Part shown: piece by piece, positions 3,679 through 26,494 of the stretch | Layout: each line of letters begins with the position of its first letter | Position numbering within the stretch: position 1 is the stretch's first letter | DNA from: Sulfitobacter sp. DFL-14 | Lineage (GTDB): Bacteria; Pseudomonadota; Alphaproteobacteria; Rhodobacterales; Rhodobacteraceae | DNA length: 64,000 nucleotides | Direction of reading: 5' to 3' | Assembly: GCF_003335585.1 (NCBI RefSeq) | Contig: NZ_QBFD01000046.1 | Span: forward strand, 149,345-213,344 | Made by a program: the position numbers and the translations under genes | Notes under the pieces: model-generated | The model's database searches: none | What the model saw: only the letters and a program-made list of their open reading frames with translations | Told to the model about the DNA's origin: nothing

Positions 3679-3690
3679 ATAATGCATTAT
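3679..3690. promoter_or_regulatory. GntR-type operator ATAATGCATTAT (perfect)
   Basis: This is a 12-bp perfect palindrome in front of the CoA-transferase gene. On the minus strand it overlaps a good -10 box, TATAAT (3686-3691), paired with TTACAA at 3710-3715 (18-bp spacer). Binding here would block RNA polymerase. Copies occur upstream of the other units in this region. Confidence 0.65.
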
Positions 3691-3715
3691 ATGCAAGATA
3701 ATTCTTTTATTGTAA
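3686..3715 (-). promoter_or_regulatory. Putative sigma70 promoter for the CoA-transferase operon
   Basis: On the minus strand, TTACAA (3715-3710) is followed after 18 bases by TATAAT (3691-3686). It lies 75 bp before the chosen start codon and is overlapped by the operator at 3679-3690. Confidence 0.5.
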
Positions 3716-3750
3716 GCGTATTTCGGCGTGAAATTGCAATTTCAGCCAAA

Positions 3751-3766
3751 TTATAATGCATTATAA
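3751..3766. promoter_or_regulatory. GntR-type operator, 16-bp perfect palindrome
   Basis: TTATAATGCATTATAA is the longest and most perfect member of the operator set. It lies 72 bp (centre to centre) upstream of the site at 3679-3690, consistent with two-site binding in the same promoter region. Confidence 0.65.
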
Positions 3767-3852
3767 AGAGTGATGAACAGACAAGACCCACGCAACAGCA
3801 GCGCGTGCCGGTCCTGCCCGTTGCGCTTGCCGATCTCTATGTTTCAATAGAA

Positions 3853-3876
3853 AAAGAGCGGCTTTCACCGCCCTTT
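3853..3876 (-). terminator. Rho-independent terminator after the TRAP transporter gene
   Basis: The minus strand reads a 9-bp stem (AAAGGGCGG / CCGCTCTTT, one G-U pair) with a 6-base loop, followed by TTTTTCTATT. It lies about 100 bases after the stop of the TRAP permease gene, as expected for the end of the long catabolic operon. The rest of 3877-3978 holds nothing recognisable. Confidence 0.75.
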
Positions 3877-3978: not shown

Positions 3979-5832
3979 TCATGCGATCATCCTGCGGCGC
4001 CCGAATTGCCACCCTGCCAGCAAAAGCAACAGTGCAACGATAGGTGTCCAGCTGTTTTGCCATGCGGCCAAAACAATCACCACCAGCAGCAAGACACGGT
4101 CGACACCGCGAGACCCGGTCACAGGGTAATCTGACAAAAGCGCCGGAATAGCGACAACCAGCACAAGCCCCGCCAGAACCGCGTCCAGTATTGCGAACGC
4201 GCCCCCTTCCAGCATCAGCCCCGGATAAAGCAGTATCAGGAACGGAACCAGATAGGTCATCGCCCCAAGACGCACAGCTTCGACAGCTGAGGGCATCCAG
4301 TTTGTTTGCGCAATCCCGGATGCCACAAACACCGCCACGCATACCGGAGGCGTGATAACCGAAATTGTCGCAAAGTAGAACACAAACAGATGCGCGGACA
4401 AAACCGGGATACCCACCTCGGTCAACGCGGGGGCAAGCACGGCTGCCACCAGCACATAGGCAGCCGTCGTCGGCAGCCCCATCCCCATGACAATGCACAC
4501 AACAGCAACCAAAACAGCAACAATGGCCGCTGAATCACCGCCAAGCGACACAATCGTCGATGACAGGGCAACGCCTGCTCCGGTCAGGTTTACCATCGAA
4601 ACCAGCACCTGCGCACCAGCCAGAAGCACACCAACAATCACCAGACCGCGTCCGGTATCCTCGACACCGGAAAGAATGCGTTTGCCCATTTCAGCAAATG
4701 ACAGACGCCCGATCTGTGTCAGAACGAAAACAGCCAAAAGGCCGGAAATGCCATAAAAAGCCGAGGTTGCGATCGAACGGCCCAGCATCAATCCGATGCC
4801 AAGACCGGTAAGTGCGGCCACGACCGGCCCCACATGACGCGGGGCCAGAATGCGCGACCATTTGGGCAGCTCGTCCTCAGGCACCAGCGCCAGCCCGCGC
4901 TTGACCGAAACCAGATGCACGGTCACGAAGACCGAGACATAAAACAGCACAGCGGGCAGAAACGCCGCCCGGATGATGTCAGAGTAAGGAACACCGACAA
5001 TCTCGGCCATGACAAAGGCCGCAGCCCCCATGATCGGCGGCGCGATCTGCCCCCCCGTTGACGCAACCGCTTCGACGGCGGCGGCGAACGGGCGTTGATA
5101 GCCCAGCCGGATCATCATCGGGATCGTGAAATTTCCGGTCGTCGCCACATTGGCCACAGACGACCCCGACACCATGCCGAATAATCCGCTTGCGATCGTT
5201 GCAATCTTGGCCGCACCGCCCGCCTGACGCCCGCCAAGGCGCATGGCCAGATCAATAAACGCCTGTCCCCCGCCGGTGTGCAACAAAAGTGCGCCGAACA
5301 GAACAAAGGCGGCAATCACTGTGGCGGCGACGCCGGTCAACATGCCCCATATTCCAAGGTCGCCCAGGAATACGGTTTCCGTAATATAATATGCGTCAAA
5401 CCCGCGATGCCGCATGGCACCGGGCATGTACGGGCCGAAATAGGCATAGCCCAGCCCGACCAGTACAAGGGTAGGAAAGACAATGCCAACCGTGCGCCGG
5501 GCAAGTTCAAGCACCGCCAGAACCAGACCCACGGTCAGCGCCATATCAAGTGGCGACGCCCAGGGCAGTTCGGACATGATCCGGTCTGAATTGATGACGA
5601 CATAGACACAAGCGGCGACGCCCGCAGCAACCAGCAGCAGATCCACGGCCAAACCGAACGGACGCCATTTGCTGTCTTTGCCCAAAGGATATTGCGCGAA
5701 CCCCAGACATATCACCAGCGCAAGGAACACCGCGCGCTGGACCATTGACTCATACGGCCCGAACGCGGCCGTAAAGAAGACAAAGGCTCCAATCAGCAGC
5801 GCCAGTGCCTTTGTCACCCGTGAAAGTGTCAT
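3979..5832 (-). CDS. TRAP transporter, fused small and large permease (4TM/12TM)
   Basis: This 617-residue membrane protein fuses a DctQ-like N-terminal part (about residues 1-110) to a DctM-like large subunit. GMVSGSSVANVATTGNFTIPMM and GMGLPTTAAYVL are signature segments of the TRAP-T fused permease. It partners the TAXI-type binding protein encoded 13 bp upstream and imports a substrate, usually an organic acid, using an ion gradient. It is the last gene of the operon that starts with the dehydratase at 12224. A strong terminator follows it. Annotation as a TRAP fused permease is secure; the substrate is inferred only from context. Confidence 0.93.
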   Translation of the reverse strand: MTLSRVTKALALLIGAFVFFTAAFGPYESMVQRAVFLALVICLGFAQYPLGKDSKWRPFGLAVDLLLVAAGVAACVYVVINSDRIMSELPWASPLDMALTVGLVLAVLELARRTVGIVFPTLVLVGLGYAYFGPYMPGAMRHRGFDAYYITETVFLGDLGIWGMLTGVAATVIAAFVLFGALLLHTGGGQAFIDLAMRLGGRQAGGAAKIATIASGLFGMVSGSSVANVATTGNFTIPMMIRLGYQRPFAAAVEAVASTGGQIAPPIMGAAAFVMAEIVGVPYSDIIRAAFLPAVLFYVSVFVTVHLVSVKRGLALVPEDELPKWSRILAPRHVGPVVAALTGLGIGLMLGRSIATSAFYGISGLLAVFVLTQIGRLSFAEMGKRILSGVEDTGRGLVIVGVLLAGAQVLVSMVNLTGAGVALSSTIVSLGGDSAAIVAVLVAVVCIVMGMGLPTTAAYVLVAAVLAPALTEVGIPVLSAHLFVFYFATISVITPPVCVAVFVASGIAQTNWMPSAVEAVRLGAMTYLVPFLILLYPGLMLEGGAFAILDAVLAGLVLVVAIPALLSDYPVTGSRGVDRVLLLVVIVLAAWQNSWTPIVALLLLLAGWQFGRRRMIA

Positions 5833-5845
5833 GTCAGCACAGGGG

Positions 5846-6811
5846 TCATTGCGCAGGTTTCAGTTTGGCCGGCACCTCATAGCCGTTGTCTTCGAACCAC
5901 TTCATTGCGCCCGGGTGCAACGGAACGGTGCCAAAGTCCAAAGTCGTTTGAGCAAGATCGACACCCTTCATCGCCGCCATCGCGTTGGCTTGTGCAGTTT
6001 CATCGCGCATGACCGCATCAACAATGGCATAGGCCGTTTCATCCGACATGGCGCTGGTGGAAGCAATGCCAACACCAAAGCTCCAGATCTTGTAGGCAGG
6101 AACACCATCGGCAACACCTGCGGCAATATCCACAACCGAGATATCGGGCATTTTCGCCTTTACGGTTTCGGCCTGTTCATCGGTCAGCCCAATCACACGG
6201 ATATCCGTCGCGGTTGCAAGGTCCATGGTCGAGCTGTCAAGAGACCCCAGCGATCCTGCCTTTACATAGCCTGACAAACGGTTGTCCTTGATCGAGTCGA
6301 TGATATCGGTGGTCGATCCGCGCACATAGTCGGGCGCAATGCCCAGCACGTTGAAAACCGCCTCGGTTGTGGTTTCACTTGCCGAGCCCTTGATACCCGG
6401 GTTCATCCTCATGCCACTTAGATCCGTGATGGTTTCAGCACCGGAATCTGCGCGCATAATGATATTCTGCGGAGAAACCGTATAGACCCACAAAAGCTGA
6501 AGGTCTTGCGGTTTGCCTTCGAATTCATGGGTTCCCGCAACGGCGTGCTGCACAACGTTTGTGGTAATAATCCCCAGGTCCATCTGGCCGCGTTCCATGC
6601 GCCGGATATTGTCCATTGTGGCGCCCGTTTCCACGACCGTCGCCTTCAGGTGAGCGCCACTTTCGTTGATAAGCTCACCCACCGCCACGATATACCCATA
6701 GTGGCTGGAGGAAGCAGAGGTTGATCCGAACAGCAGATCCTCTGCATGGGCTGATGTGACCGAAAGCAGTGAAATGCCACAAGCGGCAAGTCCAAAAAGT
6801 TTATGTTTCAT
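5846..6811 (-). CDS. TAXI-family TRAP solute-binding protein
   Basis: The 321-residue periplasmic protein has a clear signal peptide (MKHKLFGLAACGISLLSVTSAHAED). Its mature part contains FGSTSASSSHYGYIVAVGELINE and the ETGATMDNIRRMERGQMDLGI segment typical of TAXI receptors. The start at 6811 is preceded by GGAGGA at correct spacing; upstream in-frame starts would spoil the signal peptide. It captures the substrate and hands it to the fused TRAP permease encoded next. TAXI receptors commonly bind glutamate, 2-oxoglutarate or other dicarboxylates, which would fit the CoA-ester pathway around it. Confidence 0.93.
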   Translation of the reverse strand: MKHKLFGLAACGISLLSVTSAHAEDLLFGSTSASSSHYGYIVAVGELINESGAHLKATVVETGATMDNIRRMERGQMDLGIITTNVVQHAVAGTHEFEGKPQDLQLLWVYTVSPQNIIMRADSGAETITDLSGMRMNPGIKGSASETTTEAVFNVLGIAPDYVRGSTTDIIDSIKDNRLSGYVKAGSLGSLDSSTMDLATATDIRVIGLTDEQAETVKAKMPDISVVDIAAGVADGVPAYKIWSFGVGIASTSAMSDETAYAIVDAVMRDETAQANAMAAMKGVDLAQTTLDFGTVPLHPGAMKWFEDNGYEVPAKLKPAQ

Positions 6812-6906
6812 AGTGTCTCCTCCCCGAGACTGAAAAGTTTTTGGTCCGTCGGGCAAGAGCAGAAGCCCCGTTTCCCCTGTGACCGGCACCTTTGTTTTCA
6901 TGTCCT

Positions 6907-7716
6907 TCAGAACACCGAGGTGCCCGTTGCCTGAAGTATCTGTTGCGCCCGATCAATCAGCGGGCGGTCTACCATTTTGCCATCAACCTGAACCACAGAT
7001 CCCGCAGCCTCTTCCAGGGCCTTCAGTATCCGGTGGGCCCAGTCAATCTCGGCTGTGGAGGGCAGGAACCCGGTGTTCACCGGAGTCACCTGCGCAGGAT
7101 GAATGCACAGTTTGGCGCCAAACCCGTAAGCCCGCGCACGCTCGACATCACTTGTTATGACATCCGCATCTTTCAAATCCGTCGTCACCCCATCGACAGG
7201 CTGAAGCAGGTTTCCCAAACGCGAGGCCAGCACGATTTCGAACCGCGCAGCATCCAGAACCGCCCCGCCACCCGGAATCCGTGTATCGGCCCCGAAATCC
7301 AGATTGCCAAAGGCAAGACGGGCAACGCCCGGAACGGTTACAGAGGTGCGCAAGGTGGCCAGACCCTGTGCAGATTCAATCAATGCGATCAGCGCCCGGC
7401 CGGGCAGCGCTTCACACACGTCTGTCAGGCTGACAGGATCGGCCTTGGGAACCATGATTGCCGCATGATCAAATGCGCCAAGTGCGGCAATGTCCTCCCT
7501 GAACCACGGGCTGTCCTGGCCATTGATACGCACAATGCCCTGCCCGCCTTGGGCAAACCAGTTAACGACATTGACACGGGCTGCGTCCTTGAGCTCCGGC
7601 CCGACCGCATCTTCCAGATCAAGAATGATCGCATCTGCACCAGAAAGCCGCGCTTTTTCAAAGCGGTCGGGGCGCTGACCGGGCACAAACAGATAGCTGC
7701 GTGGTGGCGTCATCAT
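6907..7716 (-). CDS. CitE-type acyl-CoA lyase (citramalyl/malyl-CoA lyase-like)
   Basis: The 269-residue protein belongs to the HpcH/HpaI and CitE aldolase family. It begins with the family hallmark PRSYLFVPGQRPDRFEKA. LILDLEDAV is followed by the metal-ligand regions ALIESAQGL (Glu) and FGNLDFGADTR (Asp). These enzymes cleave (citra)malyl-type CoA thioesters, giving acetyl-CoA plus pyruvate or glyoxylate. It lies 6 bp downstream of the hydratase gene, matching the order CoA-transferase, hydratase, lyase seen in itaconate degradation (Ict-Ich-Ccl). Exact substrate specificity cannot be read from sequence. Confidence 0.85.
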   Translation of the reverse strand: MMTPPRSYLFVPGQRPDRFEKARLSGADAIILDLEDAVGPELKDAARVNVVNWFAQGGQGIVRINGQDSPWFREDIAALGAFDHAAIMVPKADPVSLTDVCEALPGRALIALIESAQGLATLRTSVTVPGVARLAFGNLDFGADTRIPGGGAVLDAARFEIVLASRLGNLLQPVDGVTTDLKDADVITSDVERARAYGFGAKLCIHPAQVTPVNTGFLPSTAEIDWAHRILKALEEAAGSVVQVDGKMVDRPLIDRAQQILQATGTSVF

Positions 7717-7722
7717 CGCACC

Positions 7723-8586
7723 TCAGACCTTGAAACGGGCGCTGGCGCTCATTGCCAGTTCACCGTCGGGGCCACGCGCCCATACGTCCAATGTGCCCTT
7801 TTCTGCGCCGGATTTGGCTTCCAGATGAAAGGGCCGGTCGACAAACAAGGGTGCCATGCCCCGGAAATCAAAGGTTTCCAGCGTCGCACCGGAATGGCAT
7901 TTGCCTGCAAAGCCCTGCAACAAGGTCGCAATCAACGGGCCATGCACAACAAGGTTTGGATAGCCTTCCTCTTGGGTGGCATAGGGTTTGTCATAGTGAA
8001 TGCGGTGACCGTTGGATGTCAGTGCCGAATAGCGGAACAATGTAACCGGATCGGGGGCAAAGACTTCGGACCACTCTGCGCCTTCGGGCGCAGGTGCGGG
8101 CTGTGGCTTTGGCGCGTCGGCGGCGGGCGCTTCGCGGTACACGATGTCCTGTTCTTCCTGAATACAGACCTTTCCATCGGCCAGAATCTTGTGCAGCACG
8201 GTGACAAACACCAACTGCCCCGCCCGACCCGATTTCGTGGTTACCTTGAGAATTTCGCTATGCTTTTCCGCCTGTGCGCCGATCGACAGGGGCGCGCAAT
8301 AGGTCAGCCTTCCACCCGCCCACATCCGGCGCGGCAAAGCGACATCGGGCAGGAACCCGCCGCGTTTGGGGTGACCGTCCACGCCAAGTTCGCTGCGCTT
8401 TTTGAAGGGGTTGAAAAACAGCCAATGCCAGCCTGCGGGCAACGCCTGCCCCGACACAGGCGCATCCAGATCAAGCGTCGCGGCCAGCCACGACACCGGA
8501 CCCGTCAGGATTTGCCCCTTGATCTGCTCTGTGCGCCCGATAGCGGCGCAGTAATCGTGGTCCTGAACGGCTTGTACAATTGTCAT
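7723..8586 (-). CDS. Hot-dog fold mesaconyl/itaconyl-CoA hydratase-like protein
   Basis: The 287-residue product matches the mesaconyl-C4-CoA hydratase / itaconyl-CoA hydratase group: an N-terminal FAS1-like hot-dog domain and a C-terminal MaoC-like one. The hydratase motif appears as SALTSNGHRIHYD (residues ~190-205), followed by NLVVHGPL. It would add water to an unsaturated dicarboxyl-CoA to give a citramalyl-CoA-type product for the lyase encoded next. It sits between the CoA-transferase pair (24 bp) and the lyase (6 bp). A proline/alanine-rich linker, APKPQPAPAPEG, separates the two halves. Confidence 0.82.
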   Translation of the reverse strand: MTIVQAVQDHDYCAAIGRTEQIKGQILTGPVSWLAATLDLDAPVSGQALPAGWHWLFFNPFKKRSELGVDGHPKRGGFLPDVALPRRMWAGGRLTYCAPLSIGAQAEKHSEILKVTTKSGRAGQLVFVTVLHKILADGKVCIQEEQDIVYREAPAADAPKPQPAPAPEGAEWSEVFAPDPVTLFRYSALTSNGHRIHYDKPYATQEEGYPNLVVHGPLIATLLQGFAGKCHSGATLETFDFRGMAPLFVDRPFHLEAKSGAEKGTLDVWARGPDGELAMSASARFKV

Positions 8587-8610
8587 AAGGTGCTTCTCTT
8601 TCTTGCGGCG

Positions 8611-9804
8611 TCAAAAAATTACATGTTCGTCAACAAGACGGGCGCGTTCGCGGGCACCGATGCCCAGAAGGTCGCCAAAAACATAGTCTTCGTGCTCTCC
8701 CAGCCCAGGCGTTCCCCGGTCCATTCCGGGCGCGTCGCTTTTGGAAAACCGCGCCGGAAATCCAATCGCCTTGCGTGTCTTTCCGTTGGATTCCGTCACC
8801 TCGACGATGCTATTGCGGCCACGCATATGCGGATCTGCAACAATATCCGACGCGCGCCAGGACACATGCGCCGCGATGCCTGCGCTTTGCAGCAGTGCCG
8901 CGGCCGTATCAGCATCACTAGCCTTGCACCAATGGCGTACAAAACCATCCACTTCTGAACGGCGGGCAATCCGTGCAGCACCCGTCGCATAGCATGCATC
9001 GTTCGCAAGTTCAGGCCGCCCCATTATCTCGGCCAGTGCCTTCCATTCACCATCAGACGTCACTGCAACCGTCAGCCACCGCTCTGGTGTGTCCGTCGCG
9101 TAAATGCCATGCGGCGCATGTTGCGGGTCGTTGTTGCCCATGCGCTCAAGTTCGACACCGGCAGAGCTTGCTGTCAGCGCCTCGCCGACAAGCGACGACG
9201 CCACTTCGCGTGCGGCCACATCGACATGGCTGCCCAGCCCCGTCATCCGGCGTTTGTGCAAAGCCGCAACGGTCGCAAGGGCCGCGTTCATCCCGACGGA
9301 ATGATCCATGACGTGACGCATTTCCACAGGGGGGCCATCCTCGTAGCCCGTCAGATACCCCAAGCCGCCCCAAGCACCGAATAGCGGCGCGTATCCGGCG
9401 AAATGGCTGTCTGGCCCCGTTTGCCCCGACGAAGACACGGACACCATGACGATATCCTTTTTAACCGCGCGCAGCACTTCATACCCAAGACCAAGCCGTT
9501 GCATCACCCCGGCCCGAAAGCTTTCGGCTGCGACATCCGATTGTGCGACCAGACGCTTTGCCAGTGCCACGCCATCTGCGTGCTTCAGGTTCAGGCGCAC
9601 AGACAGCTTGTTCGACGCGACCTGATCAAAGGTTGCAGGTCCGGCACGGCCATAAACGGCGTGGGGCTTGCGAAAAATATCAAGACGTTGCGAACTTTCG
9701 ATCTTGATGCATTGGGCACCCAGTTGCGACAGCATATGCGTACAGAACGGCCCCGCCGCGTGTACGGTGAAATCTGCAATCCGAAGACCTTCGAGCGGTT
9801 TCAT
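8611..9804 (-). CDS. Class III (CaiB/BaiF) CoA-transferase, catalytic type
   Basis: This 397-residue class III CoA-transferase starts with the family pattern LEGLRIADFTVHAAGPFCTHMLSQLGA. It keeps the catalytic Asp expected near position 169 (D167 in MRHVMDHSVGMNAAL), which forms the aspartyl-CoA anhydride. It transfers CoA, typically from succinyl-CoA, to a dicarboxylate. It overlaps the preceding CoA-transferase gene by 4 bases (ATGA type), which suggests the two proteins are made in equal amounts and may form a heteromer. In context it should activate the substrate for the hydratase and lyase encoded downstream. Confidence 0.88.
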   Translation of the reverse strand: MKPLEGLRIADFTVHAAGPFCTHMLSQLGAQCIKIESSQRLDIFRKPHAVYGRAGPATFDQVASNKLSVRLNLKHADGVALAKRLVAQSDVAAESFRAGVMQRLGLGYEVLRAVKKDIVMVSVSSSGQTGPDSHFAGYAPLFGAWGGLGYLTGYEDGPPVEMRHVMDHSVGMNAALATVAALHKRRMTGLGSHVDVAAREVASSLVGEALTASSAGVELERMGNNDPQHAPHGIYATDTPERWLTVAVTSDGEWKALAEIMGRPELANDACYATGAARIARRSEVDGFVRHWCKASDADTAAALLQSAGIAAHVSWRASDIVADPHMRGRNSIVEVTESNGKTRKAIGFPARFSKSDAPGMDRGTPGLGEHEDYVFGDLLGIGARERARLVDEHVIF

Positions 9805-10967
9805 ATTGTCACCCTCTTGCTAAGAACTGGCGGTGTGGCGTCCAGTATGTATTGATGCGCACCGGGCTGGGGGGCCGCCGCATCAATGCCAACGGGGGCA
9901 TCGGCAAAGCGGAACGGGGCAGCCTGGACTTTGATGACACCGTCCGCAACCGTCTGGACGTTCTGAAACGCACCGCGTGCTACCTCATGTGCGCCTGCCA
10001 AAATCTGGTGTGGCGCATTGTAGCGCGCCATCGGAACGCCCAGTTCCTGCGCGCGTGCCACCAGATCCTCGACCTCGAACTGGCAGGCCCAGGCACGGAT
10101 TTTTTCGTTGATCATGTCACCCGAGTTGCTGCGCGCTACGGCATCGTTCAATGCCGGGTCCTGCGCCCATTCGGGGTCGCCCATCAGATGCACCAACCCT
10201 TGCCACTGGCGTTCTTCCAAGGTCAGCAATTCCACATAGCCATCACTGCATGCGATCACGCCGCCATAGCGGAACGACCGTGTCAATCGGTGCTCGACCG
10301 AGCCGTCACCGAACCGTTGTATGGCAAATGCGCCGACGGCCGCATTGGCGTCTTGTATCGAGACATCAACGCATTGCCCCTTGCGCGACCACAAAGCCGA
10401 CAGCGCGGAAAGTGCGGCAACCACCCCGCCCTGCATCTGGGCAAAATGGCCGGCAATCTTCAACGGAGGCCGGTCGGGGAACATATTGGCCGACAGCCCG
10501 TTGGGCAGCAAGAAGCCCTCGCCGCCTGCATGAATCAAATTGATTTCTGCCCCGCTCCAGTCTGCCTTTGGCCCAAATGCGCCAAAGGGAAGCACCGACA
10601 GGTGGATAAGGTCGGGATAGCGCGCAGCGATCCCGGCCTCATCAATACCGAGCGACGCGCGACCTTTCACAGGCGTATCATCAATAAAGATGTCAGCCGC
10701 CGTCAGAAGAGAGGCCAGGGAGGCGCGACCGGTCTCGGTTTCAAGATCGCAGATGACACCTTTCTTGTCAGCCGCGACATAAGCGAACAATGCACTTTCC
10801 CCGCTTGGCAAAAAGGGGGCGGTGCGCCTGAGCACCGACAGTGCCGCGGGCTCTACAAGGGTGACTTCGGCACCCATCGCAGCAAGAAGGCGTCCAGCCC
10901 AAGCGCCGGCAACTCCGGACGTGTGTTCCACGACATGAATGCCCGAAAGCGGTTTATCTTGGGACAT
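9801..10967 (-). CDS. Class III CoA-transferase paralogue lacking the catalytic Asp
   Basis: This 388-residue CaiB/BaiF-family protein (LSGIHVVEHTSGVAGAWAGRLLAAMGA at the N-terminus) overlaps the next CoA-transferase gene by 4 bases. At the place where the family carries the catalytic Asp in a D-x3-G pattern, it has Q177 (HFAQMQGGVVAAL). It may therefore be a non-catalytic partner of the D167-bearing protein in a heteromeric CoA-transferase; paired class III subunits are known, for example SmtAB and BbsEF. The alignment was done by eye, so the missing Asp should be treated as likely rather than proven. Confidence 0.82.
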   Translation of the reverse strand: MSQDKPLSGIHVVEHTSGVAGAWAGRLLAAMGAEVTLVEPAALSVLRRTAPFLPSGESALFAYVAADKKGVICDLETETGRASLASLLTAADIFIDDTPVKGRASLGIDEAGIAARYPDLIHLSVLPFGAFGPKADWSGAEINLIHAGGEGFLLPNGLSANMFPDRPPLKIAGHFAQMQGGVVAALSALSALWSRKGQCVDVSIQDANAAVGAFAIQRFGDGSVEHRLTRSFRYGGVIACSDGYVELLTLEERQWQGLVHLMGDPEWAQDPALNDAVARSNSGDMINEKIRAWACQFEVEDLVARAQELGVPMARYNAPHQILAGAHEVARGAFQNVQTVADGVIKVQAAPFRFADAPVGIDAAAPQPGAHQYILDATPPVLSKRVTI

Positions 10968-11003: not shown

Positions 11004-12224
11004 TTAGCGCACGACTGGCAGATCAAGTTCGAGATTGCCGCCGTCGAGGAAAACCCGAAGCTGAGGATCGCGCGATTGCAGTGCGACAGTTGCGATGCCC
11101 GGCGTCGTGATCTCGCCACGCTGGTTTTCGCCCCAGATTTCAATGTCGACCAGCGCGTGACCGTCCTTGATGTACTTCTTGGACACCTTGCCCTTGCACC
11201 AGGTGCTGTCGCCCATGGTGTTAAAGCGGCGCATTTCGGTGCGGACACGTTTCAGGAAAGCCCCATTGCCCATCCAGTTTGTGACCAACGACGCCATCCA
11301 CGAAGACCGCTGCGGACCATAGTCATAGACACCCGGCACGCCGACTTCCTTGGCGGTGCTTTCACGGTGGTGACCGATACCTGTGTATTCGATCCCGCCG
11401 CCCGCTTCGGGGTTTCGGAAGAAGTGACCGGGGTGTTTCATGGCTGCCTGGAACACAACGCCGTGGGTGTGACCGCGGCCGCAACCCACCAAAAAGCCCA
11501 TGGTGTCCATCAGCGACAGCGGACCGCGTACGATGGTGTCCAGGCTTTCGCCTTCTGTTACATCTTCCCAATAGCGCACCTTTGAGCCGCGAATTTTCAT
11601 CGGCTCTTCCATGATGCAGGCGTCCAGCTCTTCATATTCTTCGTTGGTGTATTCGTGCGTTTTGATGTCGGCGTATTTGCCGGCATCCCGCGCCGCCTTG
11701 CGTTCGTGGCGGGTACAGGTTCCCAGCGCACGGGCAAGCAGATCACCATGCTGGTTGAAATAGCTGGCTTCGACATATTGCAGCACAAGCCGCCCCGAGA
11801 ATTTCGATTCTTTCTCTTCAATGCCGATCACACGTTCGACGGCGTTGACGCGGTCGCCCGGACGAATGTGGCGGAACAGCTCCCAGTCGTTGCCCGCATA
11901 AAAGCCGTGAACGCCGGGCAGACCCCAACGCGTACGACCGATCCAGCCGAACGCCATCGGGAACATCGGATGTGCCAGCTGCGACCCATAGCGTGATTCA
12001 GCGCCATAGCCGGGATCGCGGTACAGCGGGTTCAGATCACCAATGCCGTTGCACCAGTTGCGCAGCGTGTCCGCAGTTGCGTCTTGCAGATACGGACCCT
12101 CGGGGCGCAGTTGCAAACCGATCATATCCTTGGCGGCAGCAACCGCTTCGTCTGTGATTTTCCCCTCGGCCGGGGCGCCGCCCATGCCCTTACTCTTGTC
12201 TTCTTTCAATGTTGCTGTGGTCAC
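11004..12224 (-). CDS. Double hot-dog MaoC-type acyl-CoA dehydratase/hydratase
   Basis: The 406-residue protein has an N-terminal FAS1-like dehydratase domain (residues ~35-185, including YLQDATADTLRNWCNGIGDLNPLY) and a C-terminal MaoC-like domain (from ~215, RYWEDVTEGESL). The GTG start at 12224 was chosen because AGAGGAGA lies just upstream; a longer TTG start would include that ribosome site. It is first in a seven-gene operon running to the TRAP permease at 3979. It probably hydrates or dehydrates a CoA thioester before or after the second hydratase in the same operon. Two operator-like sites precede it. Confidence 0.82.
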   Translation of the reverse strand: MTTATLKEDKSKGMGGAPAEGKITDEAVAAAKDMIGLQLRPEGPYLQDATADTLRNWCNGIGDLNPLYRDPGYGAESRYGSQLAHPMFPMAFGWIGRTRWGLPGVHGFYAGNDWELFRHIRPGDRVNAVERVIGIEEKESKFSGRLVLQYVEASYFNQHGDLLARALGTCTRHERKAARDAGKYADIKTHEYTNEEYEELDACIMEEPMKIRGSKVRYWEDVTEGESLDTIVRGPLSLMDTMGFLVGCGRGHTHGVVFQAAMKHPGHFFRNPEAGGGIEYTGIGHHRESTAKEVGVPGVYDYGPQRSSWMASLVTNWMGNGAFLKRVRTEMRRFNTMGDSTWCKGKVSKKYIKDGHALVDIEIWGENQRGEITTPGIATVALQSRDPQLRVFLDGGNLELDLPVVR

Positions 12225-12310: not shown

Positions 12311-12322
12311 TTAATGCATTTT
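12311..12322. promoter_or_regulatory. GntR-type operator, imperfect
   Basis: TTAATGCATTTT keeps the central AATGCATT of the ATAATGCATTAT set. It lies 87 bp before the dehydratase start codon, within the probable promoter of the catabolic operon. Confidence 0.5.
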
Positions 12323-12436: not shown

Positions 12437-12448
12437 ATAATGCATTAT
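12437..12448. promoter_or_regulatory. GntR-type operator ATAATGCATTAT (perfect)
   Basis: This is an exact copy of the site at 3679-3690. It lies between the isochorismatase-like stop codon and the dehydratase operon promoter region, 115 bp (centre to centre) from the imperfect site at 12311-12322. Confidence 0.6.
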
Positions 12449-13034: not shown

Positions 13035-13109
13035 CTCTGTCTCCATTGCTCTATGTTTCGGAAAGGTTTTGCCCACCGAACCAGACACAACGTCCACAGA
13101 TTTCGCGTG

Positions 13110-18956: not shown

Positions 18957-19705
18957 CAATCCATCAACATCCCGCCGTTCACATCCAGAACGGTACCTGT
19001 GATCCAATTTGAAGCAGGCGAGCAAAGGAACAGGATCGCCTGCGCGATATCTTCGGGCTGGCCGAAACGGCCCAGCGGAACACTGCCATGCGCCGAAGGG
19101 GCTGCGCGTTGCGTCACGGTCTCCCACATCGGGGTTTCAACCGGCCCCGGTGCGATCACGCTGGCATAAATGCCCTTGTCCGCACCGTTTTTGGCCACCC
19201 ATTTCATAAGCCCATGCACTGCCGACTTGGCCGCGACATAGGACGGCCCCGACGCCACGCCGCCGATCTTGGCCGCAATCGACCCTAGTGCCACGATCTT
19301 GCCCATCTGCTGATCGGCCATCACCGGGAAAATCTCGCGCACCGGATTGACGACACCCATCAGGTTCACGTCCAGCATCTGCTGCCATTCGTCGTCGGTC
19401 GAATCTGTCAGGTGCCGGTGCGAAATCGTGCCTGCACACAGAACCAACGCATCAATGCGCCCGTATTCCGAGAGGACATCCGCAACCAGCGACCGTGTGG
19501 CATCGCGTGAGGTCACATCGTAGCGACGATAGATGATCTTGCTGTCCGCAAACTCTGCATCGTCGCCAATATCGGTCGCGATCACTGTCGATCCCGCCTG
19601 CGCCAGGGCAAGTGCTGTCGCCCGGCCGATCCCGCCGGCAGCCCCCGTCACGATCGTTATCTTTTCATCCATACGCGCTGGCGCACTTACTGGTATCTGG
19701 GCCAT
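18956..19705 (-). CDS. Short-chain dehydrogenase/reductase
   Basis: This 249-residue classical SDR has the nucleotide-binding TGAAGGIG (residues 20-27) and the active-site residues S142, Y156 and K160 (YVAAK). The C-terminal VNGG ending is typical. It should interconvert an alcohol and a ketone with NAD(P)H. It lies 88 bp after the substrate-binding protein gene, with a stem-loop between them, and overlaps the next dehydrogenase gene. A second dehydrogenase in the operon implies an alcohol or hydroxy-acid step on the imported compound. Confidence 0.88.
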   Translation of the reverse strand: MAQIPVSAPARMDEKITIVTGAAGGIGRATALALAQAGSTVIATDIGDDAEFADSKIIYRRYDVTSRDATRSLVADVLSEYGRIDALVLCAGTISHRHLTDSTDDEWQQMLDVNLMGVVNPVREIFPVMADQQMGKIVALGSIAAKIGGVASGPSYVAAKSAVHGLMKWVAKNGADKGIYASVIAPGPVETPMWETVTQRAAPSAHGSVPLGRFGQPEDIAQAILFLCSPASNWITGTVLDVNGGMLMD

Positions 19706-19793: not shown

Positions 19794-20999
19794 TTACTTC
19801 GCAGCGTCAAAGACGACCGACGGGTAGGACGTGAATTCGCTCACAAGCTCGAACCCGTCCGATGTCGCCTGAATGATGCCCTCTTTGCGGGTGCCCCGAT
19901 GATCGCCCGCCTCAAAGGTAACCCCGCGTGCACCGCCAACGGACGCCCCTTCAAGCGTTTCAAGCGCCTTGATCAGGTTCACACGGGTCAGATCATCACC
20001 CGATGCCAACAGCGCCTCAAAACCTTTGTGGAAAATCGCGGCATTGCTCCAGCCGTTCAGGCCAAAAACGCCCACCGGATCGTCTGGATAGTACTTGGCG
20101 ATAGAGTCGCGATAGGCCGCGATTTCCGCCTCGTCACTCGAAACCGGCAGCAGCCATGACGAAAAATAGACGCCGTCCAGAAGATCGCCCGCCAGTTTGC
20201 GCGTCGACGGGTCAGCCGTGAAGAACGGCGCAAACCATTTCACGTCCAGACCCTGCAAATCGGCGGCCTTCAGTGCAGCAGCCAGGTTGGCGTTCGATCC
20301 GAACAGGATCACCGCTTCGGCGCCCGAGTTCGCAACGCGGCGGATATGCGGGCTGAAGCTGGTGGTTTTCACATCAAACGGCACGGATTCAGCCGCTTCA
20401 AGACCCAGTTCGCCCAGATAGGTGTCAAAACCGCGCTTGGCCGACTTGCCCAACTCGTCATTCTCCCACAGCAGGGCAACCTTGGTCAGATCAAGTTCGT
20501 TGAGCGCATAATGAAGGTTCGATGCCGCAGACCAGCCATAGTCAGGCAAAAGCGGAAACACGTTCGGCTCGACAAAAAACTGGCTTGCGCCCCCGATCGG
20601 ACCAATGACCGGCAGGCTGACTTCGCGCGCATAGGGCAAGACCGCGACATTCGTCGCCGTGCCGATTGAAGCGGACAGCGCGAAAATGCCGTCATCCTCG
20701 ACCATCTGGCGCGTTACGGCGACCGAACGCGCTGGATCATATCCATCGTCTTTGGTAATGTAATTGACAGTCCAGCCGTCAATGCCGCCATTTTCATTCA
20801 GGTTGCGATAATACGCCTCGGCCGCATGTGTCAGGGTTGCGTAAAACGGCACCGGTCCGGTCACAGGTGTAAATGCACCAATCGTGACAACCTTGGCCTC
20901 CTCGTCAATGCCAACATCAGCCGCCTGTCCTGCCCCTGCCAGAAAAGCGGGCCCCACCGCAGCCAGTGACACCACGAGCCATCTCGAAATCGAAAGCAT
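19794..20999 (-). CDS. Liv-type ABC transporter substrate-binding protein
   Basis: The 401-residue periplasmic protein has a signal peptide (MLSISRWLVVSLAAVGPAFLAGAGQAAD). Its type I binding-protein fold includes VTIGAFTPVTGPVPFYATLTHAAEAYYRNLNENGGIDG. The ATG at 20999 follows GGGAGGAG; longer upstream frames lack a signal peptide. It is first in the operon of SBP, SDR, dehydrogenase, livHMGF, MBL hydrolase, GntR and isochorismatase-like genes. Three operator-like palindromes lie upstream in the divergent promoter region. Confidence 0.92.
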   Translation of the reverse strand: MLSISRWLVVSLAAVGPAFLAGAGQAADVGIDEEAKVVTIGAFTPVTGPVPFYATLTHAAEAYYRNLNENGGIDGWTVNYITKDDGYDPARSVAVTRQMVEDDGIFALSASIGTATNVAVLPYAREVSLPVIGPIGGASQFFVEPNVFPLLPDYGWSAASNLHYALNELDLTKVALLWENDELGKSAKRGFDTYLGELGLEAAESVPFDVKTTSFSPHIRRVANSGAEAVILFGSNANLAAALKAADLQGLDVKWFAPFFTADPSTRKLAGDLLDGVYFSSWLLPVSSDEAEIAAYRDSIAKYYPDDPVGVFGLNGWSNAAIFHKGFEALLASGDDLTRVNLIKALETLEGASVGGARGVTFEAGDHRGTRKEGIIQATSDGFELVSEFTSYPSVVFDAAK

Positions 21000-21065
21000 A
21001 CGTTCTCCTCCCATGTATGTGTTTCTTGACGTTACGATATGTAGAGAGCCATCCCAGGTCAATAT

Positions 21066-21077
21066 AAAATGCATTAT
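21066..21077. promoter_or_regulatory. GntR-type operator, one mismatch
   Basis: AAAATGCATTAT lies 67 bp upstream of the substrate-binding protein start in the 267-bp divergent region. It differs from ATAATGCATTAT at one base. Confidence 0.6.
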
Positions 21078-21108
21078 AAATGAGATTTCTGGATCTGGAT
21101 CGGCGTTT

Positions 21109-21120
21109 TCAATGTATTAT
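21109..21120. promoter_or_regulatory. Weak operator-like site
   Basis: TCAATGTATTAT matches the operator set at 9 of 12 positions. It lies between two better copies, so it may be an auxiliary half-site. Confidence 0.3.
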
Positions 21121-21170
21121 CAAGAGATTTCCCGCATATGGCGGCGGCCCCTCCCTCCGGGAGCGCCAAT

Positions 21171-21182
21171 ACAATGCATTTT
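21171..21182. promoter_or_regulatory. GntR-type operator, two mismatches
   Basis: ACAATGCATTTT keeps the central AATGCATT and lies 84 bp before the divergent CoA-transferase start. The same regulator could therefore control both directions. Confidence 0.5.
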
Positions 21183-21266: not shown

Positions 21267-22484
21267 ATGTATCAAGGCGTACTGGCTGGGAAAACTGTGG
21301 TCGAATTGGGCAGCATGATCGCCGCCCCGTTTGCAACCCATATCCTGCAGCAACTGGGTGCAACGGTCATCAAAATCGAACCCCCCGTTGGCGAAACCAC
21401 ACGCAAACTCGTGCGCGGCGGCCCCAGCGGTAGCTATCTGGCCTTTAACCGCGGCAAAAAAAGCCTGTGTCTTGACCTGCAACAAGACCAGGGGAAAAAA
21501 ATCTTCCGCAAGCTTGTCGAGGACGCCGACATCGTCCTTCACAACCTGTCCCCCAGCGCCTCGAAAAAGCTTGGCGTTACATTCGAGGACTGCAACGCAC
21601 TGAATCCCGACATCATTTTTTGCGCCATCAAAGGCTATGGCGAAGGGCCACTGTCCCAAGAGGTCGCATCAAACCCGATTGCAGAAGCCGCAACCGGAAT
21701 CATGTATTCAAACCGCATTGACGGACGCCCCTCGCGCCTTGGCCCGTCCTATCACGACCAGTTCGCCGGCTGTTATGCGGTGATTGCGGTGCTGAGCGCC
21801 CTGATTTCGAAAGATGAGTCCAAGCGCAATATCGAACTGGGCCTCTATGAAACCGGCCTGCACATCGCCGCACGCGACCTTCTGGGCGTCCAACTTAAAT
21901 CGCAACTGCTTGGGCGCGCAGAAACCGAACCTTCGGCTGAATTCAGCATTCCCGGCTACGGCTCGTACGAAGGCAACGACGGGCGCTGGATCTATCTGGT
22001 CATGCTGAATGACGATCACTGGCGCAAGTTCTGCGCAGCAATGAAGATTGAACCGATTGCGGAACTTGCCACCCTGCGCGACCGCCGCCGGGAGCGCCCG
22101 CGGGTCGAAGAAATTGTGCGCACTGCTGTCGCAAGATGCAATTATGAAGAGCTTGCCTTGGCCTTTTCAGAACACGGCGTGGGCTTTACCGAGGTGCTAT
22201 CCGCTGATCGTGTGCTTGGCACACCGCAGGCCCAGGCTCCGGGCAAGTATTCGGAGTTTGAATTCAAGGACTATGACTTCCAGGCCCCAGACTTGCCAAT
22301 CCCAATAATGGTACGCGGCGACGAATTAACTACAGCTCCGCCGCTCTTGGGGGAAAACACCCAAGAAATCCTAGCGTCCCTCGGCTTTGACACGGCTGAA
22401 ATTTCCGAAACACTCAGCTCGGGGGCTGCAATCTCTGCTGACATAGAACGGCTTTTGTGGTCACTGCCCAAAACACGCGGTTAA
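21267..22484 (+). CDS. Class III (CaiB/BaiF) CoA-transferase
   Basis: The 405-residue protein starts MYQGVLAGKTVVELGSMIAAPFATHILQQLGATVIKIEPP, a standard class III N-terminus. It keeps the catalytic Asp (D164 in YHDQFAGCYAVIAVLSAL). The ATG at 21267 follows AAGGA; the longer frame upstream runs through the operator region and is rejected. It is divergent from the ABC operon and is the third CoA-transferase of this family in the region. It may activate a different acid from that handled by the overlapping pair. Confidence 0.9.
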   Translation: MYQGVLAGKTVVELGSMIAAPFATHILQQLGATVIKIEPPVGETTRKLVRGGPSGSYLAFNRGKKSLCLDLQQDQGKKIFRKLVEDADIVLHNLSPSASKKLGVTFEDCNALNPDIIFCAIKGYGEGPLSQEVASNPIAEAATGIMYSNRIDGRPSRLGPSYHDQFAGCYAVIAVLSALISKDESKRNIELGLYETGLHIAARDLLGVQLKSQLLGRAETEPSAEFSIPGYGSYEGNDGRWIYLVMLNDDHWRKFCAAMKIEPIAELATLRDRRRERPRVEEIVRTAVARCNYEELALAFSEHGVGFTEVLSADRVLGTPQAQAPGKYSEFEFKDYDFQAPDLPIPIMVRGDELTTAPPLLGENTQEILASLGFDTAEISETLSSGAAISADIERLLWSLPKTRG

Positions 22485-22554
22485 TGCGAGAAGGCGCGAC
22501 CTTTGCCACGTCGCGCGCGCGACGTTCGTGGAACTGGTTCGGATCAAAATACAT

Positions 22555-25500
22555 ATGTCAAAATTTTCGAAGATCCTGATTGCCAACCGTGGTGAAATCG
22601 CCATTCGCATCATGCGTGCGGCCAATGAGATGGGGAAGAAGACCGTTGCCGTCTTTGCGGAGGAGGACAAGCTGGGGCTGCACCGGTTCAAGGCGGACGA
22701 GGCCTATCGCATCGGCGAGGGGCTGGGGCCGGTTGCGGCCTATCTGAGCATTGACGAGATCATTCGCGTGGCCAAGGCCTCGGGTGCGGATGCGATCCAT
22801 CCGGGCTACGGGCTGCTGTCGGAAAACCCCGATCTGGTGGATGCCTGCGTGCAGAACGGCATCACCTTCATCGGTCCGCGCGCCGAGACCATGCGCGCGC
22901 TTGGCGACAAGGCCAGCGCGCGGCGGGTCGCCATCGAGGCCGGCGTGCCGGTGATCCCGGCTTCCGAAGTGCTGGGCGACGACATGGATGCGATCCGCGC
23001 CGAGGCGCGCGAGATCGGCTATCCCTTCATGCTCAAGGCCTCCTGGGGCGGTGGCGGACGCGGCATGCGCCCGATCTACAAGGAAGAAGAGCTGGAGGAG
23101 AAGATCCTGGAAGGCCGCCGCGAGGCCGAAGCGGCCTTTGGCAATGGCGAGGGCTATCTGGAAAAGATGATCCTAAAGGCGCGCCACGTCGAGGTGCAGA
23201 TCCTGGGCGACAAACATGGCGAGATCTATCACCTCTATGAGCGCGACTGCTCGGTCCAGCGCCGCAACCAGAAGGTCGTCGAACGCGCCCCCGCCCCCTA
23301 TCTGACCGAGGCACAGCGCACCGAGATCTGCGAACTGGGCCGCAAGATCTGCGCCCATGTCGGCTATGAATGCGCGGGCACCGTCGAGTTCCTGATGGAT
23401 ATGGCGGATGAGAAGTTCTACTTCATTGAGGTGAACCCGCGGGTGCAGGTGGAACATACCGTCACCGAGGAAGTCACCGGCATCGACATCGTGCGCGCCC
23501 AGATCCTGATCGCCGAGGGCAAGAGCATCGCCGAGGCCACCGGCAAGGCCAGCCAGGATGACGTGCATCTGACCGGCCATGCGCTTCAGACCCGGATCAC
23601 CACCGAGGATCCGCAGAACAACTTCATCCCCGACTATGGCCGTCTGACCGCCTACCGCTCTGCCACCGGCATGGGCATTCGCCTGGATGGCGGCACCGCC
23701 TATGCGGGCGGGGTGATCACCCGCTATTACGACAGCCTGCTGACCAAGATCACCGCCAAGGCCCCGACGCCGGAGATGGCCATCGCCCGCATGGACCGCG
23801 CCCTGCGCGAGTTCCGCATCCGCGGCGTCAGCACCAACATCGCCTTTGTCGAGAACCTGCTGAAGCACCCGACATTCCTGAACAACACCTACCACACGAA
23901 GTTCATCGACGAGACGCCGGAGCTGTTCCAGTTCTCCTCGCGCCGCGACCGGGGCACCAAGGTGCTGACCTATATCGCGGATATCACCGTGAACGGCCAT
24001 CCGGAGACCAAGGGCCATGCCCGCCCCGGCGCGCATCTGCGTGACCCCAGGCCGCCCGCCAGCCGGGCCGAACCGATGATGGGCACCCGCAACCTGCTGG
24101 AGCAGAAGGGCCCCCAGGCTGTCGCCGACTGGATGAGCCAGCAGCGCCAGTTGCTGATCACCGACACCACCATGCGCGACGGGCACCAGTCGCTGCTGGC
24201 CACGCGGATGCGCAGCCATGACATGATCAAGGTCGCCCCCGCCTATGCCGCCAACCTGCCGCAGCTCTTCAGCGTCGAATGCTGGGGCGGTGCCACCTTT
24301 GACGTGGCCTACCGGTTCCTGCAGGAATGCCCCTGGCAGCGGTTGCGCGACCTGCGCGAACGCATGCCCAACCTGATGACCCAGATGCTGCTGCGCGCTT
24401 CCAACGGGGTGGGCTACACCAATTATCCCGACAATGTGGTGCAGTTCTTTGTCAAACAGGCCGCCAGCTCGGGCGTGGACGTCTTCCGCGTCTTCGACAG
24501 CCTCAACTGGGTGGAGAACATGCGCGTCGCGATGGATGCGGTGATCGAGGCGAACAAGGTCTGCGAGGGCACGATCTGTTATACCGGTGACATCTTTGAC
24601 CCGGACCGGGCCAAGTATGACCTGAAGTATTACGTCAAGATGGGTCAGGACCTGAAAGCCGCAGGCGCCCATGTGCTGGGGCTGAAGGACATGGCCGGGC
24701 TGCTGAAACCCGCCCAGGCGCGGGTGCTGATCAAGGCCCTGAAATCCGAGGTCGGCCTGCCGATCCACTTCCACACCCATGACACCGCGGGCATTGCCTG
24801 CGCCACCATCCTCGCCGCGTCGGAAGCCGGGGTCGATGCTGTCGATTGTGCCATGGATGCGCTGTCGGGCAACACCTCCCAGGCCACGCTGGGCTCGGTT
24901 GTCTCGGCGCTGCAACATACCGACCGCGACACCGGGCTGGACATGACCGCGATCCGCGAGATCTCGGACTACTGGGAAGAGGTGCGCGCCCATTACGGAG
25001 CCTTCGAGACCGGCATGCAGGCGCCTTCCTCCGAGGTCTACCTGCACGAGATGCCGGGCGGCCAGTTCACCAACCTCAAGGCGCAGGCGGCCTCGATGGG
25101 GCTGGATGACCGCTGGCCGCAGGTCGCGCGCACCTACCGGGACGTGAACCAGATGTTCGGCGATATCGTCAAGGTCACGCCGTCGTCCAAGGTCGTGGGG
25201 GACATGGCGCTGATGATGGTCAGCCAGGGCCTGACCCGCGCGCAGGTCGAAAACCCCGAAACCGATGTGTCCTTCCCCGACAGCGTGATCGACATGATGC
25301 GCGGCAACCTGGGCCAGCCTCCCGGCGGCTTCCCCGAGGGGATCGTCAAGAAGGTGCTCAAGGGCGAGAAACCCAATCTCGCGCGCCCCGGCAAACACCT
25401 CGCGCCCGTGGACCTGGAGGCAACCCGCAAGGAGGTCTCGGAGAAGTTTGATGGCGCCCGGATCGACGATGAGGATCTCTGCGGCTACCTGATGTACCCC

Positions 25501-25995
25501 CGCGTCTTTACCGATTACATGGAGCGCCACCAGCAATACGGCCCGGTGCGCACCCTGCCCACCGCGACCTTCTTTTACGGGATGGAACCATCCGAGGAAA
25601 TCTCGGCCGAGATCGACCCCGGCAAGACGCTGGAAATCCGCATGCAGGCCCTGAGCGAGACCTCCGAGGACGGCGAGGTGAAGGTCTTCTTCGAACTCAA
25701 CGGCCAGCCGCGGGTGATCCGGGTGCCGAACCGCATGATCGCGGCCACCACCGCCCGGCGGCCCAAGGCAGAGGCAGGCAACGAAAGCCACATCGGCGCC
25801 CCGATGCCGGGCGTCGTCGCCTCGGTTGCGGCCACGGCGGGCCAGAAGATCAAGGCGGGCGATCTGTTGCTGACCATCGAGGCGATGAAGATGGAAACCG
25901 GCATCCACGCCGAACGCGACGCGGTGATCAAGGCCGTCCACATCCAGCCCGGCGCCCAGATCGACGCAAAGGACCTGCTGGTGGAGCTGGAATAG
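22555..25995 (+). CDS. pyc: Pyruvate carboxylase
   Basis: This complete 1146-residue multidomain enzyme carboxylates pyruvate to oxaloacetate using ATP and biotin. The biotin carboxylase domain covers about residues 1-455 (GGGGRGM loop, EVNPRVQVEHTVTE). The carboxyltransferase domain begins near 520 (TDTTMRDGHQSLLATRMR, carboxylated Lys in GLKDMAG). The biotinyl domain ends the protein with EAMKMET, biotin on about K1112. Length equals the family norm. The ATG at 22555 starts the canonical SKILIANRGEIAIR sequence. The coding sequence looks more GC-rich at third positions than both flanks. It could refill the TCA cycle when the pathway ends in pyruvate. Confidence 0.97.
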   Translation: MSKFSKILIANRGEIAIRIMRAANEMGKKTVAVFAEEDKLGLHRFKADEAYRIGEGLGPVAAYLSIDEIIRVAKASGADAIHPGYGLLSENPDLVDACVQNGITFIGPRAETMRALGDKASARRVAIEAGVPVIPASEVLGDDMDAIRAEAREIGYPFMLKASWGGGGRGMRPIYKEEELEEKILEGRREAEAAFGNGEGYLEKMILKARHVEVQILGDKHGEIYHLYERDCSVQRRNQKVVERAPAPYLTEAQRTEICELGRKICAHVGYECAGTVEFLMDMADEKFYFIEVNPRVQVEHTVTEEVTGIDIVRAQILIAEGKSIAEATGKASQDDVHLTGHALQTRITTEDPQNNFIPDYGRLTAYRSATGMGIRLDGGTAYAGGVITRYYDSLLTKITAKAPTPEMAIARMDRALREFRIRGVSTNIAFVENLLKHPTFLNNTYHTKFIDETPELFQFSSRRDRGTKVLTYIADITVNGHPETKGHARPGAHLRDPRPPASRAEPMMGTRNLLEQKGPQAVADWMSQQRQLLITDTTMRDGHQSLLATRMRSHDMIKVAPAYAANLPQLFSVECWGGATFDVAYRFLQECPWQRLRDLRERMPNLMTQMLLRASNGVGYTNYPDNVVQFFVKQAASSGVDVFRVFDSLNWVENMRVAMDAVIEANKVCEGTICYTGDIFDPDRAKYDLKYYVKMGQDLKAAGAHVLGLKDMAGLLKPAQARVLIKALKSEVGLPIHFHTHDTAGIACATILAASEAGVDAVDCAMDALSGNTSQATLGSVVSALQHTDRDTGLDMTAIREISDYWEEVRAHYGAFETGMQAPSSEVYLHEMPGGQFTNLKAQAASMGLDDRWPQVARTYRDVNQMFGDIVKVTPSSKVVGDMALMMVSQGLTRAQVENPETDVSFPDSVIDMMRGNLGQPPGGFPEGIVKKVLKGEKPNLARPGKHLAPVDLEATRKEVSEKFDGARIDDEDLCGYLMYPRVFTDYMERHQQYGPVRTLPTATFFYGMEPSEEISAEIDPGKTLEIRMQALSETSEDGEVKVFFELNGQPRVIRVPNRMIAATTARRPKAEAGNESHIGAPMPGVVASVAATAGQKIKAGDLLLTIEAMKMETGIHAERDAVIKAVHIQPGAQIDAKDLLVELE

Positions 25996-26351
25996 GCCAA
26001 CACCAACTTCGCATGGTAGCATCAATTACGACCTGTGCTGCCACTTTTGCTCAAACAATTTATCGGAAGGATCGCAAAATATCTGATCCGCGTCGTTATC
26101 GTGCTTGTACCCTCAGCCGAAGTTCCAAGCGTTACTCAGAGATCTTTTCACTTCTTGCTTGTTGCGGGCTCGACAACATCCATCTGCTCGCCGGGGGCTA
26201 GAACCCAAAGGCATGTTTCTACGCACCTCATCCGACTGACTTAGAAGCGCTGGCAACTTGATCTGACACCGATTTGTATACCGCCAGCTCACTAGGTTGA
26301 AAGGCGAGGAATCAGTCCGCCAAATCACACACGCTGCGCCAATTCTCAACT

Positions 26352-26363
26352 ATAATGCATTAA
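26352..26363. promoter_or_regulatory. GntR-type operator, one mismatch
   Basis: ATAATGCATTAA lies 238 bp upstream of tctC. It differs at the last base from the perfect palindrome and suggests the TTT transporter belongs to the same regulon. Confidence 0.55.
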
Positions 26364-26482
26364 AAGTGGCTGCAGTCGCTGAAGAATGCTCGTAGTGTCA
26401 TTGGGTTAAGCACAATTTTTCTTCTAAAACAGGATATTTATGTCTTTACGTGTCATATTCAGCAATCATTACCCTTAAACAG

Positions 26483-26494
26483 TTAGTGCATTAT
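26483..26494. promoter_or_regulatory. Operator-like site, two mismatches
   Basis: TTAGTGCATTAT is embedded in a very AT-rich stretch (TATATTTTATTATGCTAT follows) 107 bp before tctC, so it probably overlaps the promoter. Confidence 0.4.

Follow-up and report, generated by a model that had tools for sequence, protein, structure and literature searches.

Among the closest described relatives of the system reported here are the cluster-encoded GntR/FCD regulators of the FadR/LldR/PdhR type. The operators of FadR and PdhR have a TGGT/ACCA-type core, and in FadR an arginine of the recognition helix contacts the operator. On the metabolic side, the second part of the 3-hydroxypropionate bicycle includes a mesaconyl-C4-CoA hydratase and a citramalyl-CoA lyase. 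The known regulators of itaconate utilization are LysR-type proteins. According to excerpts of two published accounts, the itaconate/methylsuccinate clusters of Pseudomonas and Cupriavidus encode CoA-transferase, hydratase and citramalyl-CoA-lyase-type steps leading to acetyl-CoA and pyruvate, and the itaconate cluster of P. aeruginosa also has the lactonase PA0880 (PMC12290011, PMC9875883).

The DNA studied here, a 64,000-nucleotide stretch of Sulfitobacter sp. DFL-14 (hereafter the window), carries five putative transcription units, in front of which the initial annotation had noticed copies of one palindrome. The first unit consists of a succinyl-CoA:acetate CoA-transferase-like gene and a permease-like ORF. 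The second extends from a MaoC/FAS1-type dehydratase through two CaiB genes, a hydratase and a CitE-like lyase to a TAXI binding protein and a fused TRAP permease. The third, the Liv unit, encodes a binding protein, a short-chain dehydrogenase (SDR), a beta-hydroxyacid dehydrogenase, two permeases, two ATPases, a metallo-beta-lactamase-fold (MBL) protein, a GntR/FCD regulator and an isochorismatase-fold protein; the fourth, divergent from it, consists of CaiB and pyruvate carboxylase genes, and the fifth is the tripartite tricarboxylate transporter (TTT) operon tctCBA. The features are as follows.

566-1963, reverse strand: permease-like ORF, 465 aa, hydrophobic, without a Pfam or NCBIfam match
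2058-3611, reverse strand: succinyl-CoA:acetate CoA-transferase-like gene (scpC), ScpC above the NCBIfam cut-off
3679-3690: palindrome, perfect, operator-like, upstream of the CoA-transferase/permease unit
3751-3766: palindrome, extended perfect copy, 74 bp from the 3679 copy
3979-6901, reverse strand: TAXI-type TRAP transporter (fused permease 3979-5832, binding protein 5846-6901)
6907-7716, reverse strand: CitE/RipC-like CoA-ester lyase
7723-8586, reverse strand: MaoC/FAS1-type hydratase, 287 aa, weak Pfam match, some relatives named 3-methylfumaryl-CoA hydratase
8611-10967, reverse strand: two class III (CaiB) CoA-transferases
11004-12224, reverse strand: large MaoC/FAS1-type dehydratase heading its unit, putative GTG start (ORF opens at 12260)
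12311-12322: palindrome, 2 mismatches, upstream of the dehydratase
12437-12448: palindrome, perfect, upstream of the dehydratase, 126 bp (12.0 turns) from the 12311 copy
12456-13097, reverse strand: isochorismatase-fold protein without the catalytic cysteine
13110-13751, reverse strand: GntR/FCD regulator (Pfam), proposed to bind the palindrome
13799-13810: palindrome, 2 mismatches, between the MBL gene and gntR
13812-14639, reverse strand: metallo-beta-lactamase-fold lactonase-like protein
14658-18075, reverse strand: Liv-type ABC transporter, two ATPases and two permeases
18042-19705, reverse strand: beta-hydroxyacid (3-hydroxyisobutyrate-type) dehydrogenase and short-chain dehydrogenase
19794-20999, reverse strand: Liv-type substrate-binding protein (livJ), putative start (ORF opens at 21074)
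21066-21182: divergent promoter region with three palindromes, 21066 (1 mismatch), 21109 (3) and 21171 (2)
21269-22484, forward strand: class III CoA-transferase (CaiB), putative start (ORF opens at 21138)
22528-25995, forward strand: pyruvate carboxylase, 43 bp behind the CoA-transferase gene
26352-26363: palindrome, 1 mismatch, upstream of the TTT operon
26483-26494: palindrome, 2 mismatches, upstream of the TTT operon, in the spacer of the sigma-70-like match 26476-26504
26601-29675, forward strand: tripartite tricarboxylate transporter TctC, TctB and TctA

A scan of the window for the palindrome ATAATGCATTAT found it in perfect form at 3679-3690, at 12437-12448 and within the 16-bp extended copy 3751-3766, whose core is 3753-3764. 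Further copies had one mismatch (21066 and 26352), two (12311, 21171 and 26483) or three (21109). All the perfect, extended and near-copies listed in the initial annotation were thus recovered. Another copy with two mismatches, at 2003, precedes the permease-like ORF 566-1963. The sites lie approximately 65 to 250 bp from the putative gene starts. The scpC start at 3611 was chosen on the basis of a Shine-Dalgarno-like sequence (the ORF opens at 3638), and with this start and those at 12224, 20999 and 21269 the sites fall outside genes, 12311 and 12437 being upstream of the dehydratase and 21171 upstream of CaiB. The assignment of copies to all five units holds with two over-long ORFs shortened to such putative starts.

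Five copies with at most one mismatch were observed in the window where 0.04 were expected, and none of 100 shuffles reached this number. With up to three mismatches 20 copies were observed and 12.85 expected, and four of 100 shuffles reached 20; the weak copies, being close to chance in number, say little and are informative only through their positions. In the genome (5,696,510 bases, 47 contigs) the perfect palindrome occurs at three places, all in the cluster. Five of the seven places with at most one mismatch are also there (reversed-pattern control, 1), and 40 places have at most two mismatches (control, 16). The whole-genome scan, which had been suggested as a check on the original proposal, thus found the motif to be rare. 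Operator-like sites precede every unit and are rare elsewhere, the TTT unit having them in one locus only.

Two places outside the cluster were considered as regulon members and rejected. The copy at C46:234888 (one mismatch) is flanked by a gene for a GntR paralogue and by a divergent ORF beside TTT genes. The copy at C46:1194654 (at most one mismatch, with a two-mismatch partner at 1194603) has what we take to be box-like genes on one side and, on the other, an XRE-type regulator gene, presumably BoxR-like. BoxR and BzdR prefer TGCA. In L008 (approximately 8604-8666) the motif-like copies that separate box-like genes from an XRE-type regulator gene are probably the site of another regulator.

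A scan with the GntR protein retrieved 18 loci from named genomes, which ranged from rhizobia and Rhodobacterales to Azospirillum and had GntR identities of 55 to 81%. Gene order was strongly conserved among them, and each of the 18 contained between 3 and 7 copies of the motif, counted at up to two mismatches; the reversed motif was found in none. Together with the window, seven plasmid loci fetched with the dehydratase (see below) and locus L071 from a further genome, they make up a set of 27 loci with 129 sites (at most two mismatches), which are not independent, since four are from Agrobacterium, two from Salipiger abyssi and two from Cupriavidus, and most were fetched with GntR itself. 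A site was present upstream of the dehydratase gene in 27 of 27 loci (at most two mismatches, several loci closely related), and before livJ or the adjacent CaiB gene in 25 of 26, leaving out L026, which has no such region, and assigning L024, L029 and the window by hand. Jiella (L012) had no copy with up to two mismatches before livJ and none with up to one mismatch anywhere in its genome. Sites preceded scpC in four of the 27 loci and the TTT operon in one, the window itself, from which control of this operon is predicted. Directly upstream of gntR a copy with at most two mismatches recurred in 10 of the 27 loci; four of these are from Agrobacterium, and gntR has a different location in L067. 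This recurrence suggests that the gntR promoter may be self-regulated.

Only five of the 129 sites lie inside genes, one of these merely because the CaiB ORF of the window opens too early. The reversed control (at most two mismatches) gave one match in each of L060, L061 and L071; L076, L077 and L078 were outside this control. In the logo of 101 distinct sites the core AATGCATT was nearly invariant and the outer positions showed a weaker A/T preference, although sites picked at up to two mismatches are biased to the motif; near-duplicate loci (L060, L076, L077) and gntR or intragenic sites were excluded. In the livJ/CaiB promoter of L015 (2628-2646) two palindromes overlap at a 7-bp offset, and the same was seen in L020, L021, L022, L062 and L071.

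Of the cluster-bearing genomes, 18 of 19 have a copy with at most one mismatch, Jiella being the exception. The 61 other genomes of the genus contain 117 such copies (mean 1.9, up to 7), as compared to 47 for the reversed control (mean 0.8), and at least one of these copies is perfect (G1146, among the places listed). Seven copies were found in G005, those listed (5 places) being on separate contigs. Since another genome of the genus also reaches seven and a perfect copy occurs elsewhere, the genome-wide copy count is a weak marker of the regulon, which is marked by clustering and conserved position.

The protein encoded at 13110-13751 has an N-terminal winged helix (PF00392, 49.9 bits, cut-off 27) and a C-terminal FCD domain (PF07729, 75.1 bits, cut-off 24.3). 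The statement that a single FCD-type GntR gene is present is correct for the cluster, but the genome holds 17 matches to this protein, itself included. Three histidines of FCD domains (FH, EH, HI) bind metal; they were conserved in all 24 GntR orthologues. All 24 aligned orthologues also share the recognition helix SITPVREA, whereas five aligned paralogues have SRIPIREA, SRTPIREA, GMTPVREA and, twice, SRTPLREA, so that Ile gives way to Arg in four of them and to Met in one. The exchange of Arg for Ile would fit a different, TGCA-centred operator. In 23 other genomes of the genus the top match to GntR is about 30% identical, so the cluster is patchily distributed. The occurrence of plasmid copies and the transposase gene at 31193-31870 are compatible with horizontal transfer.

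Taken together, these data make it very likely that the palindrome is the operator through which the GntR/FCD protein of the cluster coordinately controls enzymes and transporters. Such a local regulon is well supported, and we infer binding, repression and an inducer. A GntR dimer would bind 12-bp sites centred on AATGCATT, often at least two per promoter, and would jointly control the catabolic enzymes, the CoA-transferases, pyruvate carboxylase and the transporters. It most likely represses them until an organic acid or an intermediate of the CoA pathway binds to the FCD domain.

The alternative that survives best accepts the same regulator and motif but supposes that GntR activates, or combines activation with repression, through the multiple sites. 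The distance of the sites from the putative starts is consistent with this, as are the spacings, which weakly favour whole helical turns. For 44 neighbouring site pairs within one promoter, R was 0.49 at 10.5 bp (nominal p 3e-5, kinship ignored). When similar spacings within a promoter type were merged, the 25 remaining values gave an R of 0.36 at 10.5 bp (p 0.037) and of 0.46 at 10.75 bp (p 0.0045), the best value being reached by 62 of 2000 jittered sets; this is a hint, no more, that operators are bound on the same face of the DNA. Activation would also suit the scpC and dehydratase promoters, where a consensus scan found in each region one sigma-70-like match on the wrong strand and none on the coding strand, so that repression by covering the promoter would be conjectural at these two. 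At the CaiB and TTT promoters, promoter-like matches touch or enclose a site, which argues against activation. In the livJ/CaiB region three sigma-70-like matches were found (0.4 expected), the one on the CaiB strand (21042-21070) overlapping the site at 21066, and in the TTT region there were two (0.8 expected), of which 26476-26504 has the site at 26483 in its spacer. A palindrome preceded by T contains TATAAT, and an operator might cover a -10 box. Such consensus matches are weak evidence. Taking into account that repressors form the majority of the FCD regulators studied in catabolic clusters, we regard activation as rather unlikely and retain repression by the local GntR protein as the preferred reading.

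A second alternative concerns the pathway, which could simply be the Pseudomonas-type degradation of itaconate or methylsuccinate. The CoA-transferase, hydratase and citramalyl-CoA-lyase-like set that such a pathway needs is present, but the lyase scored 144.4 bits with the RipC equivalog, far below the cut-off of 375, and did not reach equivalog level. Among 120 listed relatives of the hydratase, eight (JGI) and one (NCBI) bear the automatic name 3-methylfumaryl-CoA hydratase, and many others have domain-only names or are called acyl-CoA dehydrogenase, also automatically. Amidases of the isochorismatase superfamily use a catalytic Asp-Lys-Cys triad. The protein 12456-13097, annotated as a cysteine hydrolase, has conserved Asp and Lys positions but Val at the position of the catalytic Cys of RutB, and Cys was found there in none of 24 loci (the window and 23 related ones), so that this protein is unlikely to be a typical amidase. 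In Cupriavidus pinatubonensis (L061, 12865-13788) the position of the MBL lactonase-like gene is occupied by a gene for an SMP-30/gluconolactonase, which hints at a lactone intermediate. We consider the plain Pseudomonas-type pathway unlikely.

The enzymes would rather fit a route in which alcohol oxidation and lactone opening precede a branched C5-dicarboxyl-CoA that ends in acetyl-CoA and pyruvate. Most likely, a small branched substrate would be oxidised and de-lactonised, then activated with CoA and converted through an intermediate of the 3-methylfumaryl-CoA or itaconyl-CoA type to citramalyl-CoA. Cleavage of the latter would yield acetyl-CoA and pyruvate, from which pyruvate carboxylase would make oxaloacetate. 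Pyruvate carboxylase genes near the cluster in Cupriavidus and in a cluster of Pseudosulfitobacter support these end products. The compact Pseudosulfitobacter cluster, on plasmid locus L066 (4967-12222), combines genes for a hydratase, a lyase, an electron-transfer flavoprotein (ETF) and pyruvate carboxylase with a short CoA-transferase ORF, adjoins an IS5 transposase and possibly represents a related pathway.

According to a third alternative, a regulator encoded elsewhere, for example another FCD protein, binds the motif, and the local GntR protein controls itself or something else. The 17 GntR matches in the genome and the one-mismatch copy at C46:234888, where a GntR paralogue is encoded close to TTT genes, favour it. 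A search not biased by GntR bears on this point. In the plasmid collection, tblastn with the dehydratase found eight records with identities from 78 to 91% and a further 27 that stayed under 60%, and in seven of seven fetched loci (from the eight records) a GntR gene was present and the motif lay upstream of the dehydratase gene; GntR was identified by annotation or, in the unannotated L067, by tblastn (52%). Two of these plasmids are from Cupriavidus, with GntR 52 to 54% identical, and carry ATAATGCATTCT or AGAATGCATTCT at the corresponding promoters. Dehydratase searches at E <= 1e-100 matched 3 of 385, 4 of 390 and 1 of 398 genomes, each time including that of the window. Three of the five non-self matches had GntR and the motif (two of these genomes are probably the same as L016 and L020), and in two neither was seen: one is a contig of 5 kb, and the other, with a 57% identical dehydratase, had neither the motif nor a match to GntR (E <= 1e-8) within 19.9 kb. 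GntR and the motif were thus seen jointly or not at all in the loci fetched with the dehydratase, and the association of the site with the GntR orthologue extends to different families and to Betaproteobacteria. Besides GntR, no regulator type was common to the six annotated plasmid loci. These findings make control by a regulator encoded elsewhere quite improbable.

That AT-rich or promoter sequence gave rise to the palindromes by chance is practically excluded by the shuffles, the reversed control in 18 loci and the conserved promoter positions: only the weak copies are near chance in number, whereas the strong ones are five where 0.04 were expected and a copy lies at the corresponding promoter in all 27 loci.

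One regulon under the local GntR protein is therefore the best reading, because the motif is rare and clustered, is conserved at promoters across families and into Betaproteobacteria, and tracks GntR and its recognition helix. The corresponding proposal of the initial annotation is borne out by rarity, clustering, conserved promoter positions and co-occurrence with GntR, the TTT operon being included through one locus. Very probably, genes for the import and breakdown of an organic acid are switched together by a control circuit that is new but of an ordinary type. More tentatively, SITPVREA proteins may form a GntR subfamily whose TGCA operators, placed on one face of the DNA, loop or cooperate, and which governs an undescribed route from a lactone or alcohol precursor, by oxidation and opening, into a branched C5-dicarboxyl-CoA pathway that ends in pyruvate and acetyl-CoA, with a Cys-less isochorismatase-fold enzyme that is perhaps an enol-ether hydrolase and not an amidase.

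The putative regulator-operator pair would delimit an uncharacterised catabolic pathway, patchy in Alpha- and Betaproteobacteria and in several cases located on plasmids. The regulon tells which genes belong together and so narrows the range of substrates; a sensor for the substrate of the pathway might be developed from the regulator. No description of the cluster or the operator was found in the open-licence PMC literature (titles and abstract starts, among the matches listed). The opinion that this is not a described system applies to the pathway, which is unfamiliar, but not to the logic of the regulon, an FCD regulator encoded in the catabolic cluster that it would control.

As far as can be judged from the DNA, the regulon is real and its type familiar, whereas its operator and recognition helix, like the pathway, are unfamiliar. 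With the FadR/LldR/PdhR type it shares the winged helix and FCD domain, palindromic operators and a regulator gene inside the regulated cluster, but it differs in the TGCA core of the operator and in the Ile of the recognition helix, where four of five paralogues have Arg. The hydratase and lyase are of the same kinds as in the second part of the 3-hydroxypropionate bicycle, here in a catabolic setting with transporters. In comparison with the itaconate cluster, as outlined in the excerpted accounts, the present one has an MBL or SMP-30 lactonase, two dehydrogenases, a large MaoC dehydratase and a Cys-less isochorismatase-fold protein, together with pyruvate carboxylase, several transporters and putative control by GntR (PMC12290011, PMC9875883).
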